A stretch of DNA of 24,870 nt from a virus, in IMG/VR virus record IMGVR_UViG_3300029319_000478, positions 1-24,870 of that record; one strand, 5' to 3'. Positions within the stretch are counted from its first letter, which is position 1. Every line of letters begins with the position of its first letter. Shown one piece after another: positions 13,435-21,233 of the stretch. The position numbers were made by a program, and so were the translations under genes. The notes beneath the pieces were generated by a model. That model was not told the origin of the DNA. It did no database searches and was given only the letters and a program-made list of their open reading frames with translations.

Positions 13435-13608
13435 ATGACTGATATAACTAAATATAAAAACGTATCACTGAGTCATAAAACATATGACTTGATTGATAAG
13501 ATAAGAAAAGTAATACAACCAGACACGGTTCTGAGTAGATCACAAACTATAAGTATTTTAGTAAATGAGAAAGCGAGGAAACTGAATGGCAAAACCAAAA
13601 AAGACTAA
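13435..13608 (+). CDS. Ribbon-helix-helix (Arc/CopG-like) DNA-binding protein
   Basis: 57 residues with the ribbon-helix-helix layout: a short N-terminal strand (YKNVSLSHK, 7-15), helix one (TYDLIDKIRKVI, 16-27), a turn and helix two (SRSQTISILVNEKARKL, 34-50), then a basic tail. Such proteins dimerise and bind operators through the strand, usually as repressors. Its own promoter and strong ribosome site lie just upstream, so autoregulation is plausible. It is the only clear transcription-regulator candidate in the window. It overlaps the next gene by 23 bases. Confidence 0.7.
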   Translation: MTDITKYKNVSLSHKTYDLIDKIRKVIQPDTVLSRSQTISILVNEKARKLNGKTKKD

Positions 13609-15279: not shown

Positions 15280-15429
15280 ATGACGTTGACATATGGAATA
15301 GGAATGTTTGTTTATGGTATGGGCTGTATCGCTATTGGTGCAATCGTAGCCTATAAAATAATAAACAGAAAATCTCCGGAAGAAAGGGAGAACGAAGAGT
15401 ATCTGAAAGAACTAAAGAAAAAATTATGA
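15280..15429 (+). CDS. 49-residue single-span membrane protein
   Basis: Starts 2 bases after the previous stop, with GGGAG close upstream. Residues 5-26 form a glycine-rich membrane span (YGIGMFVYGMGCIAIGAIVAY), followed by a charged cytoplasmic-looking tail (KIINRKSPEERENEEYLKELKKKL). Function unknown. It ends in an ATGA overlap with the next gene. Confidence 0.65.
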   Translation: MTLTYGIGMFVYGMGCIAIGAIVAYKIINRKSPEERENEEYLKELKKKL

Positions 15430-17069: not shown

Positions 17070-17357
17070 ATGAGAAGAGCCAAAAAATCTAAATACCGAC
17101 ATGTAGTAATTAAAAATAAAAAATATTATTTTTATACAATCCGTTGGGTCGACATCACGGGTGATGCGGGGCATTCGACAGCCGAAGAGTTTTTAAAATT
17201 TAAACCTACAACTATGGTAACACAAGCATATGTGTTTAAAAAAGATAGAAAACACCTTTGGACTTTTGCTAGTTATGAAGAGGGTGATGAGTTGTTTAGT
17301 GATAGAAATGTTTTTCCAATTGGTTGTGTTGTAAAGATGGAAAAATTAATTGTCTGA
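17070..17357 (+). CDS. Unknown small protein
   Basis: 95 residues, basic at the N-terminus (MRRAKKSKYRHVVIKNKK) with alternating strands afterwards (YYFYTIRWVDITGDAGHST, TTMVTQAYVFKKDRKHLWTFASY, NVFPIGCVVKMEKL), suggesting a small beta-barrel. GGGAG lies 12 bases before the ATG, slightly far. It resembles short proteins seen in other marine phages, without known function. Its 3' end overlaps the convergent small-terminase gene by 12 bases. Confidence 0.7.
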   Translation: MRRAKKSKYRHVVIKNKKYYFYTIRWVDITGDAGHSTAEEFLKFKPTTMVTQAYVFKKDRKHLWTFASYEEGDELFSDRNVFPIGCVVKMEKLIV

Positions 17358-17873
17358 GTTATCTTCGTAGTCGCCTTCAACAAGTTTTTGAGCAGCAATT
17401 CTTTCTTTGTTAATCTCTTCAATTCTTTTAATCTCAGCAAGTTTAGCGTCTTTGGCCATTTGATTTACGTTTACATTGTAATTAGTTACTGAGAACATTC
17501 CTGTTGCTTTACCTTTTATGTTAAGCAATGGAGCTATACCTTTGATGGAACTTTCGGTGTTAAAATTATCTAGTTTGTTGTGAGCTAACGCTATATCTTT
17601 AATGAATGACCCATGGCTAACTTTGTATGCTCTGTTTACCTCGTTGCTCTTTTGTTGGTAATAAGCCAATACTTTTGGATTCTTCATAAGTTTATAAGCA
17701 GCTTCGTCAGCACAGTTTTCAGAGTATCCTGCCCTGATAGCAGCGTCTCTACGTGTTGTCCTACCTTCGTGATAGATTAAATAATCTACGAACCTACGTT
17801 GCATCTCAGTGATCTTAATAGGAGCTAAATAATCAATCTTCTTTTTGACAAGATTTTGTTTGTTTTTTGCCAT
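17346..17873 (-). CDS. terS: Small terminase subunit
   Basis: 175 residues from the ATG at 17873; a longer frame from 17912 would place the promoter inside the gene. Residues about 23-70 carry the Terminase_2-like helix-turn-helix: MQRRFVDYLIYHEGR, AAIRAGYSENCADEAAYKLMKNPKV. The middle and C-terminal parts are helical with a charged tail, as in subunits that form a ring and hand DNA to the large terminase. Unusually it is on the minus strand and about 4.6 kb from terL, which is on the plus strand. The promoter upstream predicts a leaderless mRNA. Confidence 0.8.
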   Translation of the reverse strand: MAKNKQNLVKKKIDYLAPIKITEMQRRFVDYLIYHEGRTTRRDAAIRAGYSENCADEAAYKLMKNPKVLAYYQQKSNEVNRAYKVSHGSFIKDIALAHNKLDNFNTESSIKGIAPLLNIKGKATGMFSVTNYNVNVNQMAKDAKLAEIKRIEEINKERIAAQKLVEGDYEDNSDN

Positions 17874-17875
17874 AC

Positions 17876-17904
17876 TTGAATATATACATAAAATCTTATA
17901 TAAA
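17876..17904 (+). promoter_or_regulatory. Plus-strand promoter for the gene at 17913
   Basis: TTGAAT (17876-17881), a 17-base spacer and TATAAA (17899-17904) end 8 bases before the ATG at 17913. No Shine-Dalgarno sequence is present, so a leaderless transcript is predicted. It interleaves with the minus-strand small-terminase promoter. Confidence 0.55.
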
Positions 17905-17909
17905 CACAA
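17881..17909 (-). promoter_or_regulatory. Minus-strand promoter for the small terminase gene
   Basis: On the minus strand, TTGTGT (17909-17904), a 17-base spacer and TATATA (17886-17881) end 7 bases before the ATG at 17873. No ribosome-binding site lies between. Divergent and overlapping with the plus-strand promoter at 17876-17904, so the two may exclude each other. Confidence 0.55.
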
Positions 17910-17912
17910 CAC

Positions 17913-18140
17913 ATGAAAGCGAAAGAACTCAGACAGTATTTAGATAAATTTTTAAAATCTGAAGCAGCTAAAAATGCTAGAGTCCAAATTGAGATGCCTA
18001 ATGGTGACAAATTAGACGTGTATGAAATTCAATTGTTGGAATCTAGAATGATTGGTGATAGAGACACGCACATATTAAATTTGAAAGGAACTAGGTTAAA
18101 AGCCACTTGGAAGATGCCCAAAATAATTGGCAAATTATAG
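17913..18140 (+). CDS. Unknown small protein divergent from terS
   Basis: 75 residues: a basic helical N-terminus (MKAKELRQYLDKFLKSEAAKNARV) followed by strands (QIEMPNGDKLDVYEIQLLESRMIGDRDTHILNLKGT). I recall similar short proteins in marine phages but no function. The start codon follows a promoter by 8 bases without a ribosome site. It leads into the VRR-NUC gene, whose ribosome site overlaps its stop. Confidence 0.7.
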   Translation: MKAKELRQYLDKFLKSEAAKNARVQIEMPNGDKLDVYEIQLLESRMIGDRDTHILNLKGTRLKATWKMPKIIGKL

Positions 18141-18154
18141 GGGAGGTGACCCAG

Positions 18155-18520
18155 TTGAAATTAGAGAAGGATTTGTGGCGTGAGCTTAAAAGAATTAAAA
18201 GTAAAATTAAGTGGACAAGACTGGAAAACCGTAGCTTATTGGGCACTCCCGATCTATTGGGTTATAATGATACTGGCAGGTTTTTCACTGTTGAATTGAA
18301 GGTCAGATTTGGTCAGAAAATTCGGCTATCACCCCACCAAATAAGCTTCCACGTAAAGCATCCTAAGAATACATTTATTCTTGTTGCTTGTGGCCCGGAT
18401 AAGGGGAAGGTTTGCTTGTACCCTGGTTCTGGGGTACTTTCGCTTGTGAACTTTGGCTTGAAGCTTGAACCCTTGGCTCGAGGGCTTGAGGACTCGGTTC
18501 GTTTGCTTGAGAGCTTGTAG
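18155..18520 (+). CDS. VRR-NUC-type nuclease
   Basis: 121 residues from the TTG at 18155, chosen because GGGGAGG (18140-18146) lies 8 bases before it; the frame stays open upstream to 18107. PD-(D/E)XK residues are GTPD (Asp33), ELK (Glu47-Lys49) and the VRR-NUC hallmark LSPHQ (57-61). Family members cut branched or flapped DNA structures. The C-terminal third (from about residue 78) is encoded by the GCTTG repeat array and by much more G+C-rich DNA than the rest, so this tail may be recently acquired or repeat-expanded. Confidence 0.85.
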   Translation: MKLEKDLWRELKRIKSKIKWTRLENRSLLGTPDLLGYNDTGRFFTVELKVRFGQKIRLSPHQISFHVKHPKNTFILVACGPDKGKVCLYPGSGVLSLVNFGLKLEPLARGLEDSVRLLESL

Positions 18521-18587
18521 GCTTGCGGGCTTGCAGCCTCCGTTGCTTCCTGAGCTCAGCATAATATTTCGGATGTCTAAATACCAT
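18375..18587 (-). CDS. Possible small protein coupled to the GP88-family gene, antisense to the nuclease tail
   Basis: A 70-residue minus-strand frame whose ATG shares a base with the stop of the GP88-like gene (TAATG). The first 20 residues look natural and basic (MVFRHPKYYAELRKQRRLQA). The remainder is a Ser/Pro/Gln-rich tail with repeated Gln-Ala pairs produced by the GCTTG array read backwards. It overlaps the end of the plus-strand nuclease gene by 146 bases. The N-terminal part and the stop-start coupling support it; the tail could be a by-product of the repeats. Confidence 0.45.
   Translation of the reverse strand: MVFRHPKYYAELRKQRRLQARKPTSSQANEPSPQALEPRVQASSQSSQAKVPQNQGTSKPSPYPGHKQQE
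18386..18536 (+). repeat. Phased GCTTG tandem array
   Basis: Ten GCTTG copies start at 18386, 18414, 18442, 18456, 18463, 18484, 18505, 18513, 18521 and 18529. The first gaps are 28, 28, 14, 7, 21 and 21 bases, all multiples of 7; the last three are exactly 8. This looks like a decayed heptamer repeat followed by a fresher octamer repeat (GCTTGNNN four times). Further copies lie at 19227-19255 and 19957-19968. Confidence 0.8.
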
Positions 18588-19189
18588 TAATGTTTACCGT
18601 AACACACGTTAGGTGTGGACCTGTCCCAGCACTGTCTGCAGCTGCCGCACTCGTTGCTCTGATCAGGCGCCGGGCATGACCTGCCATCACCGCTGGTTAC
18701 AGTCGACGTCCACGGCCATTGCTTCACCGGTCCCTGGTTTATCATGTGTGAAGACATTCTAATGATTAAGTTTGGCGGAACTGTGGCCGGATCTAAATCT
18801 TTTAATAGTTGAGCTTCTCGCGTTGGCAGCCAGTGCCGGGTCCCTGGTGTGCGCTTGCACACTTCAAAAATTAGTTGTAAGTGCTCGGGCCCTTGCAGGT
18901 CTCCTGAGTCGTGCCACCTGAACCAGTCCTGGCCCTTGATTAACACAACCATGGCTTCAACCCAGCGCGGGTCCTTCAGAGCTTGCAGCCTTCGTTGTAA
19001 TGCTTCCTGGACGTTGCGGAACCTGTAGCGGCCCTTCAGAGCGTAACAGCCAGCGCAGACGCTGCCAGGCACTTGGACCAACTTGGCGCCAGTCTTACAT
19101 GCAACAGCCGGCAGGTTGAAAGCTGGACCAGGCATTTTGGATGGCTTCGACAGGCCGCCTGTTATTTGTCTTGCTTCTTTTTTTAACAT
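18587..19189 (-). CDS. GP88-family Cys-rich phage protein
   Basis: 200 residues matching the phage gene-product-88 pattern: PAFNLPAVACKTG, VCAGCYALKGRY (Cys45, Cys48), FRWHDSGD (90-97) and WLPTRE (120-125), then a C-terminal cluster of five cysteines (172, 181, 184, 187, 196). The cysteines suggest a bound metal or iron-sulphur cluster. Function is not known to me. The coding DNA is strikingly G+C-rich (clearly over half) compared with neighbours, and the gene has its own consensus promoter and AAAGGAAA ribosome site, all typical of a moron acquired by transfer. Confidence 0.8.
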   Translation of the reverse strand: MLKKEARQITGGLSKPSKMPGPAFNLPAVACKTGAKLVQVPGSVCAGCYALKGRYRFRNVQEALQRRLQALKDPRWVEAMVVLIKGQDWFRWHDSGDLQGPEHLQLIFEVCKRTPGTRHWLPTREAQLLKDLDPATVPPNLIIRMSSHMINQGPVKQWPWTSTVTSGDGRSCPAPDQSNECGSCRQCWDRSTPNVCYGKH

Positions 19190-19213
19190 AAGTTTCCTTT
19201 CGTTTTAAATCCC

Positions 19214-19242
19214 ATTATATCCTAGAGCTTGGGACCTGTCAA
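19214..19242 (-). promoter_or_regulatory. Consensus sigma-70 promoter of the GP88-family gene
   Basis: On the minus strand, TTGACA (19242-19237), a 17-base spacer and TATAAT (19219-19214) match the sigma-70 consensus perfectly, the only such case I found. It lies 25 bases before the start, with AAAGGAAA as ribosome site. A GGGAT sequence follows the -10 box. Confidence 0.85.
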
Positions 19243-19292
19243 GCTTGAGAGCTTGAGCCCCCACTTCATGAGGAGCCCGGGCGGGCCCACCC
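19227..19292 (+). repeat. GCTTG repeat cluster and first copy of a G+C-rich 25-base repeat
   Basis: GCTTG occurs at 19227, 19243 and 19251 (last gap 8 bases, as in the main array). Next to it, 19268-19292 reads ATGAGGAGC, one variable base, then CGGGCGGGCCCACCC; the same sequence with one difference is at 22332-22356. The flanks are also related (GAGCC then AC before both copies). This sits between the ends of the STRS-type gene and the start of the GP88-family gene. Confidence 0.75.
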
Positions 19293-19305
19293 AAAAAAAG
19301 GGCCG

Positions 19306-19321
19306 GGCGCATTGCTGCGCC
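19306..19321. terminator. G+C-rich hairpin downstream of the STRS-type gene
   Basis: GGCGCA (19306-19311) and TGCGCC (19316-19321) form a 6-bp stem with a 4-base loop, 25 bases beyond the minus-strand stop at 19346. Read on the minus strand it is followed by GC-rich sequence and then a run of T (from the AAAAAAA at 19293-19299), which gives some terminator character. Confidence 0.4.
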
Positions 19322-19345
19322 AGGTCCGTTCCTAACAGATCGGAA

Positions 19346-19903
19346 TTAGTTTGATTTCTTTGCTTTGCCACCCTGCATCTCAATACTATCTTGTGGAAAC
19401 TTACCAGACAATAGTTTACCAATTTGCGAGATCATTTTGACTTCAGCGTGTTTCTCGTGTTTGTCTTTGTATTTTATATATTCCTTGTTCCTGATCACAG
19501 GCTCAAATTTAGTATAATAAGCAAAAACGCCTCTGTCGTATCCGTCTTTAGTCTTATAATGTTTTTGAGTTGATACATGCCATTGATTATCTTTGTAGAT
19601 ATAAATATATTCTATAAATATATCTCCTTTCATTGCATCCATAAACATCCACTCGTCCCTGTACTCTTTAGCTGGATCCTCTTCGCGGTCCCAATCTCGA
19701 GCGTAAAAACTACACTCTTCAATAGTGTCTCCCAGGTATGACGCGTCTCCATGCTCAAAGAGTTGGGCTGCAAACTCAGGTTGGTCCCAATGATCAACCA
19801 ATGTTTTTCCAACGCCGTATGGATACCCATCAGAGTGAACATATATCACTTTCACTTTTTTTGTCTTTGGGTCCTCTATTGCTATATTACTTCTTGTTGA
19901 CAT
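19346..19903 (-). CDS. Conserved phage protein beginning MSTRSNIAIE
   Basis: 185 residues belonging to a widespread phage and bacterial type starting MSTRSxIxIE and containing a strand-plus-HxDGYPxGVG motif, here YVHSDGYPYGVGKTLVDHW (21-39), followed by GDASYLG. The C-terminal half is Tyr- and Lys-rich. No catalytic role is known to me. A promoter (19927-19955) and GAAAGGAAA leader precede it; the leader is shared with two plus-strand genes downstream, hinting at common control. Confidence 0.75.
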   Translation of the reverse strand: MSTRSNIAIEDPKTKKVKVIYVHSDGYPYGVGKTLVDHWDQPEFAAQLFEHGDASYLGDTIEECSFYARDWDREEDPAKEYRDEWMFMDAMKGDIFIEYIYIYKDNQWHVSTQKHYKTKDGYDRGVFAYYTKFEPVIRNKEYIKYKDKHEKHAEVKMISQIGKLLSGKFPQDSIEMQGGKAKKSN

Positions 19904-19926: not shown

Positions 19927-19955
19927 ATCTTATAATATCCCAGACCAGCTGTCAA
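19927..19955 (-). promoter_or_regulatory. Promoter of the STRS-type gene with TCTGGGATATT box
   Basis: On the minus strand TTGACA (19955-19950) is followed after 17 bases by TAAGAT (19932-19927); TATAAG two bases nearer is an alternative -10. Between them lies TCTGGGATATT, the same word that forms the palindrome at 21245-21274. The leader then carries AACAGAAAGGAAA. Confidence 0.55.
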
Positions 19956-20000
19956 GGCTTGCGGCTTGACGCCTGACTCGAAAATTATTTTTTAATTCTA

Positions 20001-20252: not shown

Positions 20253-21233
20253 ATGAGCAGAATAAGACTAAACCAAGAGTACAGGAATAAAATCGCAAAT
20301 CGTATGCGAGTACATCTTGAACAAGAAGACACAAAAGAAAAACAAAAGTATGATGAACTGAAAGCAAACCAGATTGATCTAAATGACAATGCGTGGAAAG
20401 TTGCTGAAACAATAGTAAGACGACATTATACTGATGATGATGTTGAAAAAGCAAGATACCTACAAAATAAATTTGAGAATGTAGATACTATTGCAAAAGA
20501 TAGTTGTTTTCATTTTCATTACATGGGTGAGGTTGAAAGTAGAGATTATGATAATAATCCTATCATGGAACAAAAAGCTATTGAAAAACATTTTGATTTT
20601 CGTTTGAATGGTTCAATAGATATGGAAAATAATTCTTCTTATTCAACCGACAATGAATATGGTTATGCTTTGTATCGTGATGAGTTAAAAGCACAAGAAG
20701 ATTGCAACCCAGATATTTTGATTGAACAAGAGGGTAAAGATCACAACCCACATAGAACAAAATATGTTGAGGCAAACAATAAGTATCTTGGTGATGATGA
20801 CAAAGGTTATGGCAAACAATGGAATGAAAAATATCAATTAGATTTAATTGGTAGAAATTATTGTAGAGATCGTTCTATTGCTTGTTCTGAACAAGAGTTT
20901 ATGATGTTGCAAGAATGGAAATCTCAAAAAGGTAAATTTGTTGTTGCACATTATAAATGGATTAAATCTATTTTAGATCAAATGAAAGAAATTAAAATTG
21001 GTCTAAAAGGTTATAAATATTTAGATGAGGCGATTGAACTTTCAAAAGAACTTGGTTTAAATATTAATGAGGCAGAAATAATTAGAACTAATAGTACAGG
21101 GCTAGTTATTTATAATCCTAAAAATCTTGCTGAAAGAATTAAAGGCATGAAGAATAAGGGTTCATCAAGAGAAGAAAAAATAAAAGCTAGACTGTTATAC
21201 GAGCAACAACAGGCAGAAAATAGTTTAAATTAA
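20253..21233 (+). CDS. Unknown 326-residue early-type protein
   Basis: A soluble, charged protein. The N-terminal 80 residues are helical (MSRIRLNQEYRNKIANRMRV, then KAETIVRRHYTDDDVEKARYLQNKF-like heptads), and weakly recall the start of Nmad5-type phage proteins proposed to act in nucleotide modification; I hold that only loosely. The middle is acidic and Asn-rich; a DYDNNPIMEQ stretch and a Cys/His-containing CFHFHYMGE segment (85-93) are visible. No membrane part. AACAGAAAGGAAA leads its start, and the gene heads a plus-strand operon. Confidence 0.7.
   Translation: MSRIRLNQEYRNKIANRMRVHLEQEDTKEKQKYDELKANQIDLNDNAWKVAETIVRRHYTDDDVEKARYLQNKFENVDTIAKDSCFHFHYMGEVESRDYDNNPIMEQKAIEKHFDFRLNGSIDMENNSSYSTDNEYGYALYRDELKAQEDCNPDILIEQEGKDHNPHRTKYVEANNKYLGDDDKGYGKQWNEKYQLDLIGRNYCRDRSIACSEQEFMMLQEWKSQKGKFVVAHYKWIKSILDQMKEIKIGLKGYKYLDEAIELSKELGLNINEAEIIRTNSTGLVIYNPKNLAERIKGMKNKGSSREEKIKARLLYEQQQAENSLN

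Follow-up and report, generated by a model that had tools for sequence, protein, structure and literature searches.

Promoter-adjoining arrays of a conserved five-base word as predicted operator-like elements in HTVC023P-type pelagiphages

The omega protein (ParB) of pSM19035, a ribbon-helix-helix protein, binds as one dimer per heptad and is both a regulator and the binder of the parS arrays, whose non-palindromic 7-bp direct repeats come in runs of 7-10 and overlap promoters (PMC9499535). The omega repeats occur in both orientations and have the consensus WATCACW, and the system includes a ParA partner. Another ribbon-helix-helix protein, MetJ, acts on the met boxes, which are tandem 8-bp repeats lying over promoters that are palindromic and few in number. 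In the archaeal virus SSV1 the ribbon-helix-helix protein F55 is a small viral regulator of several early promoters, where its targets are tandem repeats (PMC5569661), with just one or two short sites per promoter and a role in lysogeny control. A different setting for direct repeats is the pac region of the phages SPP1 and SF6, where they are found near terS and the complex of TerS with DNA lowers transcription (PMC4737164).

Here we describe arrays of the asymmetric word CAAGC (GCTTG on the complementary strand) in an IMG/VR virus record of 24,870 bases, the whole of which was analysed and is henceforth called the window. Its gene order is that of the SAR11 phage isolate HTVC027P, a member of the lytic HTVC023P type (PMC12753301, PMC9599517): primase, helicase, polymerase A, exonuclease, terS (minus strand), nuclease, GP88 (minus strand) and terminase large subunit. 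At the sequence level the arrays are characterized by a kept word, free linkers, a single orientation, a recurrent promoter geometry, restriction to one regulon and a pitch that is separate from GP88 ancestry. We consider the chances about even that the array noted first in the window belongs to a set of operator-like arrays forming an HTVC023P-type pelagiphage regulon, to which a small protein would bind cooperatively.

The closest analogue is the omega/parS heptads of pSM19035, followed by the MetJ boxes and then by F55 of SSV1. The array would be like the omega/parS, MetJ and F55 systems in its manner of working but, by word or by tested protein identity, is a member of none of them. As in omega/parS, 7-bp non-palindromic direct repeats overlap promoters, and in one phage lineage, with a pitch of exactly 7 bp, they form contiguous asymmetric heptads over promoters; the window has a mixed pitch of 7 and 8 bp. 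However, the phage word is CAAGCNN rather than WATCACW, its arrays run in one orientation only, a second pitch (7/8) exists and the phage is reported to be lytic. The 8-bp part of the array recalls MetJ in having short tandem boxes at an 8-bp pitch, although the phage words are asymmetric and number up to 20. The phage arrays also differ from the one or two F55 sites and their role in lysogeny, and from the SPP1 boxes, which are few, weakly specific and not part of a regulon-wide heptad array. A literature search on GCTTG or operators in phages and on pelagiphage operators returned nothing relevant, and we found no description of gene regulation in HTVC023P-type pelagiphages. These phages infect SAR11, among the most abundant bacteria of the ocean.

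The word arrays in the window and its relatives

The first-pass annotation had reported ten GCTTG words with gaps of 28, 28, 14, 7, 21, 21, 8, 8 and 8, and our recount of array A agrees with it exactly, with plus-strand starts at 18386, 18414, 18442, 18456, 18463, 18484, 18505, 18513, 18521 and 18529. The 7/8 phasing that it had pointed out is real and non-random, and acts on the DNA and not on codons. In 400 order-1 Markov sequences, as long as the window and matching the GC-rich island in composition, 5 copies was the most reached in any stretch of 148 bp, as against the 10 observed. The window as a whole has 43 GCTTG matches against 38 expected, without overall enrichment, and the signal of array A is thus local. 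Two further clusters, arrays B and C, are additions to the first description (Table 1). Array A is placed where the 3' ends of GP88/ORF2 and of the nuclease gene converge and itself has no promoter. The stretch 18250-19500, spanning the arrays and GP88, has a GC content of about 50% versus about 35% in its surroundings, which fits a cassette moving between lineages.

Table 1. Coordinates and supporting evidence of the features discussed, in window positions
Feature	Position	Strand	Evidence
Predicted binder, first choice: 57-aa ribbon-helix-helix-like protein	13435..13608	+	AlphaFold; weak RHH_1 in homologues; presence pattern
Predicted binder, second choice: terminase small subunit	17346..17912	-	Pfam Terminase_2; type predicts pitch
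Nuclease-like ORF (phrog_2165); final codons and stop inside array A	18107..18520	+	phrog match
ORF2, 70 aa, MVFRHPKYYAELRKQ..., counterpart of HTVC027P gp32	18375..18587	-	starts on GP88 stop (TAATG)
Array A: ten GCTTG (CAAGC on minus strand), mixed 7/8-bp pitch, downstream of GP88	18386..18533	+	word count; homologous arrays in relatives
GP88-family gene (PF17338), main gene behind array B	18587..19189	-	Pfam E 8e-32
GP88 promoter: TTGACA (19242-19237), 17-bp spacer, TATAAT (19219-19214)	19214..19242	-	12/12 consensus
Array B: three CAAGC over and upstream of GP88 promoter, one within -35/-10 spacer	19227..19255	-	word count
Second array-promoter gene, phrog_1987, function not assigned	19346..19903	-	phrog match
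Promoter of ORF 19346-19903: TTGACA-N17-TAAGAT, beside CAAGC	19927..19955	-	10/12 matches
Array C: two CAAGC, 7-bp pitch, upstream of ORF 19346-19903	19957..19968	-	word count

We retrieved 80 loci encoding the nuclease and 80 encoding GP88, and most of them carry the array at the equivalent place, often in a far clearer form than the window; in one locus (L072), for instance, the gaps run 7,7,7,7,7,7,7,23,7,7,7,7,7,7,7,7. Counted over 211 distinct loci, the copies in array A number 7-20, with a median of 12. In complete or long (58-60 kb) relatives, GCTTGNNGCTTG clusters near GP88 in a single orientation, and neither this pattern on the opposite strand nor a reversed control pattern was found there. 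No word was chosen beforehand in a search of about 466 kb from related genomes for 5-mers present in four or more copies at an exact 7-bp pitch. It returned GCTTG/CAAGC at this locus only, its sole other return (CTTGA in G008) being the same array read in a shifted register. The unit is the asymmetric CAAGC (GCTTG) followed by a free linker of 2-3 bases, always in one orientation and within about 2 kb.

HTVC023P, which is without GP88, has no such array. A scan of periods 6-13 in the array-less HTVC023P and 023Pt uncovered no replacement heptad array and just one 9-bp repeat, in 023Pt, and we dropped the notion of a switch to another motif in these two phages. The locus of phage 023Pt_psg01 (L203) shows, at and around 15367-15398, a degenerate array with GAGC at 4-bp steps where relatives carry heptads. 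In an array-poor lineage (L135, L142, L143 and L144), CAGGCA repeats at a pitch of about 6 bp stand beside a few CAAGC, and a change of word there is possible. Two contigs (L279 and L292) with little or no similarity to HTVC027P also have the operator pattern, which is compatible with chance given the size of the collection.

Conservation of the word and the reading frames laid over it

To compare word and linker, motif positions were set in one sequence and divergence was read in the other over 3,004 ordered pairs from 109 distinct relatives: it amounts to 0.065 in the motif, 0.268 in the linkers and 0.191 in the flanks and outside, with the qualification that repeats could align out of register, which strong gap penalties limit. 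Each of the five motif positions diverges alike (0.054-0.076), and the linkers hold just 0.03-0.04 bits of information. Within each unit of 7 (or 8) bases conservation is limited to 5, and the linkers come close to random sequence. In true tandem growth the whole unit would be copied, and the proposal of the first-pass annotation, that an old heptamer repeat had been joined by a younger octamer repeat, fails on this point. Nor is the octamer end young, since the 8-8 end by GP88 is common to dozens of relatives. When copy number and phase were compared in relatives, as had been suggested, the word positions proved to be common to them, with gains and losses of single sites and no copy-number slippage.

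The linkers also set the viral arrays apart from minisatellites, in which the whole unit including the linker is duplicated: every linker is different in 154 of the 231 viral runs, but in most cellular (CAAGCNN)n runs a single linker recurs. Cellular (CAAGCNN)4 matches, considered as possible kin, were set aside as they look like ordinary minisatellites. A decayed heptamer tandem repeat with a younger octamer part, whose frames are open by chance or selection, would explain why the 7- and 8-bp periodicity is exact. Nevertheless, we regard it as close to untenable: the linkers evolve faster than their surroundings, dozens of relatives have the 8-bp end, the same CAAGC word is found at promoters and the viral arrays look unlike the cellular minisatellites of CAAGC. 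We instead see the arrays as predicted binding sites, which would constitute a control element and not a growing DNA repeat.

Array A had further been noted for remaining open on both strands. This holds for the minus strand, where the frame 18375-18587 spans the array, but not for the plus strand, where the nuclease frame ends inside it at a TAG (18518-18520), as it does within the array in 175 of 211 relatives. A CAAGCNN array has no stop codon on the CAAGC strand in any frame (0/12,288), and about 30% of 21-nt stretches of the opposite (GCTTG) strand contain one. Since the CAAGC strand can never hold a stop, the open minus frame is largely explained without selection. ORF2 combines a recognisable head, MxFRHPKYYxELRK, with a Gln/Ala/Ser-rich tail that is array A read in frame, and we infer that the tails encoded over array A are by-products. 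The fact that the ORF2 tail is recognisably alike in close relatives might speak for selection on the ORF2 or nuclease tails at the protein level as the force shaping the array. We find this very improbable because the conserved unit disregards the frame, the linkers are more diverged than the neighbouring sequence, the nuclease frame ends within the array in most relatives, and the arrays upstream of promoters carry the same word.

Promoters adjoining the words and expression in HTVC027P

Among the minus-strand promoters in 3.1 kb, that of GP88 is the best and that of ORF 19346-19903 the second, and both adjoin words. At the GP88 promoter CAAGC abuts the -35 box, in a layout that is alike in relatives. 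Upstream of GP88 in the mixed-pitch lineage, the word runs into the -35 box as CAAGCtctCAAGCTTGACAggttaCAAGCtnnnnnTATAAgAT; in the pure-7 lineage there are up to six exact heptads, ending CAAGCTTGACA. Across the loci, 491 TTGAC sites have two or more CAAGC in the 60 bp upstream of them. In 295 of these sites there is no gap between TTGAC and the last CAAGC, and in 303 the best -10 box lies at 17 bp, versus 210 of 1,436 in the background, counts that are not independent as the loci overlap. The gene downstream is GP88 at 231 of the 491 sites and otherwise belongs to a range of small families. Some contigs have word-type promoters, the terminase and the nuclease but lack a GP88 match. A transcript that starts at such a promoter does not include the part of the array upstream of the -35 box, which counts against a reading at the RNA level.

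These layouts suggest a mechanism. The words run into the -35 box of strong promoters of the sigma-70 type, from which accessory genes on the minus strand, GP88 above all, are driven. A small DNA-binding protein of the phage, with the ribbon-helix-helix-like product of 13435-13608 as the likeliest candidate, may bind as one dimer per word and extend cooperatively from word to word. By covering the -35 box where an array meets a promoter, it could switch these genes off following an early-middle burst, with array A perhaps serving as an auxiliary site or a reservoir, through looping or titration. Repression is proposed here; activation is also a possible sign of the regulation.

In HTVC027P, array A falls within gp32, whereas gp33 (GP88) is preceded by six copies of the word and gp34 by three, and only gp33 and gp34 have array-type promoters. 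Its CAAGC clusters at 50.6-50.9 kb fall within annotated plus-strand genes and have no 7-bp runs. An RNA-seq study of this phage placed gp33 and gp34 alone in an "extra cluster 2", high at 6-9 h, which was left unexplained, and neither promoters nor motifs come up in its main text (PMC12753301). The coincidence of the array-promoter genes with a separate temporal class, two genes of 87, is suggestive; gp33 and gp34 are adjacent on the same strand, and a common time course could have another cause. Directly downstream of gp33, gp32 is not reported in extra cluster 2. The arrays offer a cis-element for this unexplained expression class along with a short list of trans-factors, and could be used as a marker for accessory genes under common control.

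The region upstream of GP88 is highly variable (L082-L161), with differing small genes, many of which have a CAAGC-array promoter of their own. GP88 itself has many invariant cysteines and an RWHDSGD motif in 20 relatives. Its predicted model (pLDDT 78) has no significant match in the PDB, the weak ones being TIM-barrel enzymes, including radical SAM proteins.

Array pitch, the genome backbone and candidate readers

The arrays occur in two pitch dialects, a pure 7-bp one, with 2027 gaps of exactly 7 bp in that lineage, and a mixed 7/8-bp one, to which the window belongs. The type of the terminase small subunit predicts the pitch in 247 of 248 loci: one type is found with the pure-7 pitch in 138 of 139 loci and the other types with the mixed pitch in 109 of 109. 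L332 is the sole locus in which terminase type and pitch are at odds. Pitch also correlates with the subtype of the ribbon-helix-helix-like protein; at the two loci where the two types disagree (L575 and L147), it follows the terminase. Among the genes tested on the full set, the terminase small subunit also shows the strongest Mantel correlation (0.63); that of the terminase large subunit is high too (0.58, on 46 loci).

When mapped on gene trees, pitch changes 1-3 times on those of the exonuclease, terminase subunit, nuclease, gp31-like and ribbon-helix-helix genes, but 16 times on that of GP88 and 19 times on that of a gp28-like small ORF converging on terS (window 17070-17357). The GP88 tree has 12 independent pairs of differing terminase type, and an average of 11.5 of these show the corresponding difference in pitch (p 0.0005). 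Few changes on the backbone trees and many on that of GP88 indicate that pitch belongs to the backbone and not to the mobile GP88. GP88 alleles move, and the arrays on either side of them take the pitch of the recipient: recombination may be limited to the coding part, or the array may be selected anew. Such conformity to the recipient favours a backbone-encoded trans-factor without naming the reader. With two pitches tied to the backbone and GP88 alleles crossing between them, these phages provide a natural experiment on the co-evolution of operator and reader.

As to the reader, a presence/absence comparison singled out HTVC027P gp21 (59 aa) and its homologues, including the window protein encoded at 13435-13608. 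This ribbon-helix-helix-like protein is present in all array-bearing genomes compared, with a mean identity of 56% among them and of 33% to its counterpart in 023Pt, where the array is poor and degenerate; this drop is among the largest of the compared genes, behind purM and gp31. AlphaFold predicts an extended segment followed by two helices (H14-27 and H35-49). For the window protein itself, Foldseek and VIA-align with the predicted monomer gave no significant or useful match, and sequence searches of the PDB and of Pfam, including RHH_1, gave none. Homologues match RHH_1 weakly in the right register, below the curated cut-off (L350, E 0.014; that of 023Pt, E 0.0023), and a profile comparison with the window protein scored 16.7, little above the shuffles, which reached at most 14.2, and above the reversed profile, which gave 14.7. 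Most such regulators have an array at the promoter of their own gene; this one does not. L590 encodes a close homologue yet has almost no array. The weak fold assignment, the missing own-promoter array and L590 all count against this protein as the reader. We rejected it as the only cause of pitch, which the terminase, exonuclease and other backbone genes predict as well or better, and keep it as the first choice for word recognition only, since its conservation tracks the presence of the array. An invariant word, in dialects whose terminases share just some 30% identity, also favours it.

The terminase small subunit is a tentative alternative as the binder. Array A would then be a pac-like site of packaging initiation, and TerS bound at the promoters would shut off GP88 and its neighbours as packaging starts. 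In addition to its prediction of pitch, which holds in both loci with disagreeing types, and its leading Mantel correlation, terS is some 0.5 kb away from array A and shares its strand with the GP88 promoter, and in SPP1 the pac direct repeats span the terS promoters and the TerS-pac complex lowers transcription of the motor operon (PMC4737164); this position and precedent favour the terminase. However, the small subunits of the 7-only and mixed dialects are no closer to each other than to those of array-less phages even as the word is invariant. The trees of the exonuclease, TerL and gp31-like genes fit the pitch too (1-2 changes), and the link may be one of lineage. Moreover, the arrays abut the -35 boxes of unrelated accessory genes that packaging does not need. 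A composite scheme appears doubtful: the same arrays would act as a packaging site (array A, bound by the small terminase) and as operators of exchangeable accessory genes, with the two dialects set by the terminase/backbone lineage. Any gene brought in would then have to take on the dialect of its new genome, and its expression would stop at the start of packaging.

It is unlikely that the binder is instead another backbone protein, such as the gp35-like 326-aa protein (20253-21233) or the gp31-like small protein, or a regulator of the host. We disfavoured a host regulator because none of 385 alphaproteobacterial genomes, a sample with an unspecified SAR11 share, contains the operator pattern. 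Neither the gp35-like nor the gp31-like protein is a known DNA binder, and the former is also found in the array-poor L142, L143, L144, L224 and L249 and in HTVC033P. In their favour, the gp35-like protein is present in all five array-bearing genomes compared and missing from HTVC023P and the searched part of 023Pt, and gp31 shows an identity drop like that of the ribbon-helix-helix-like protein.
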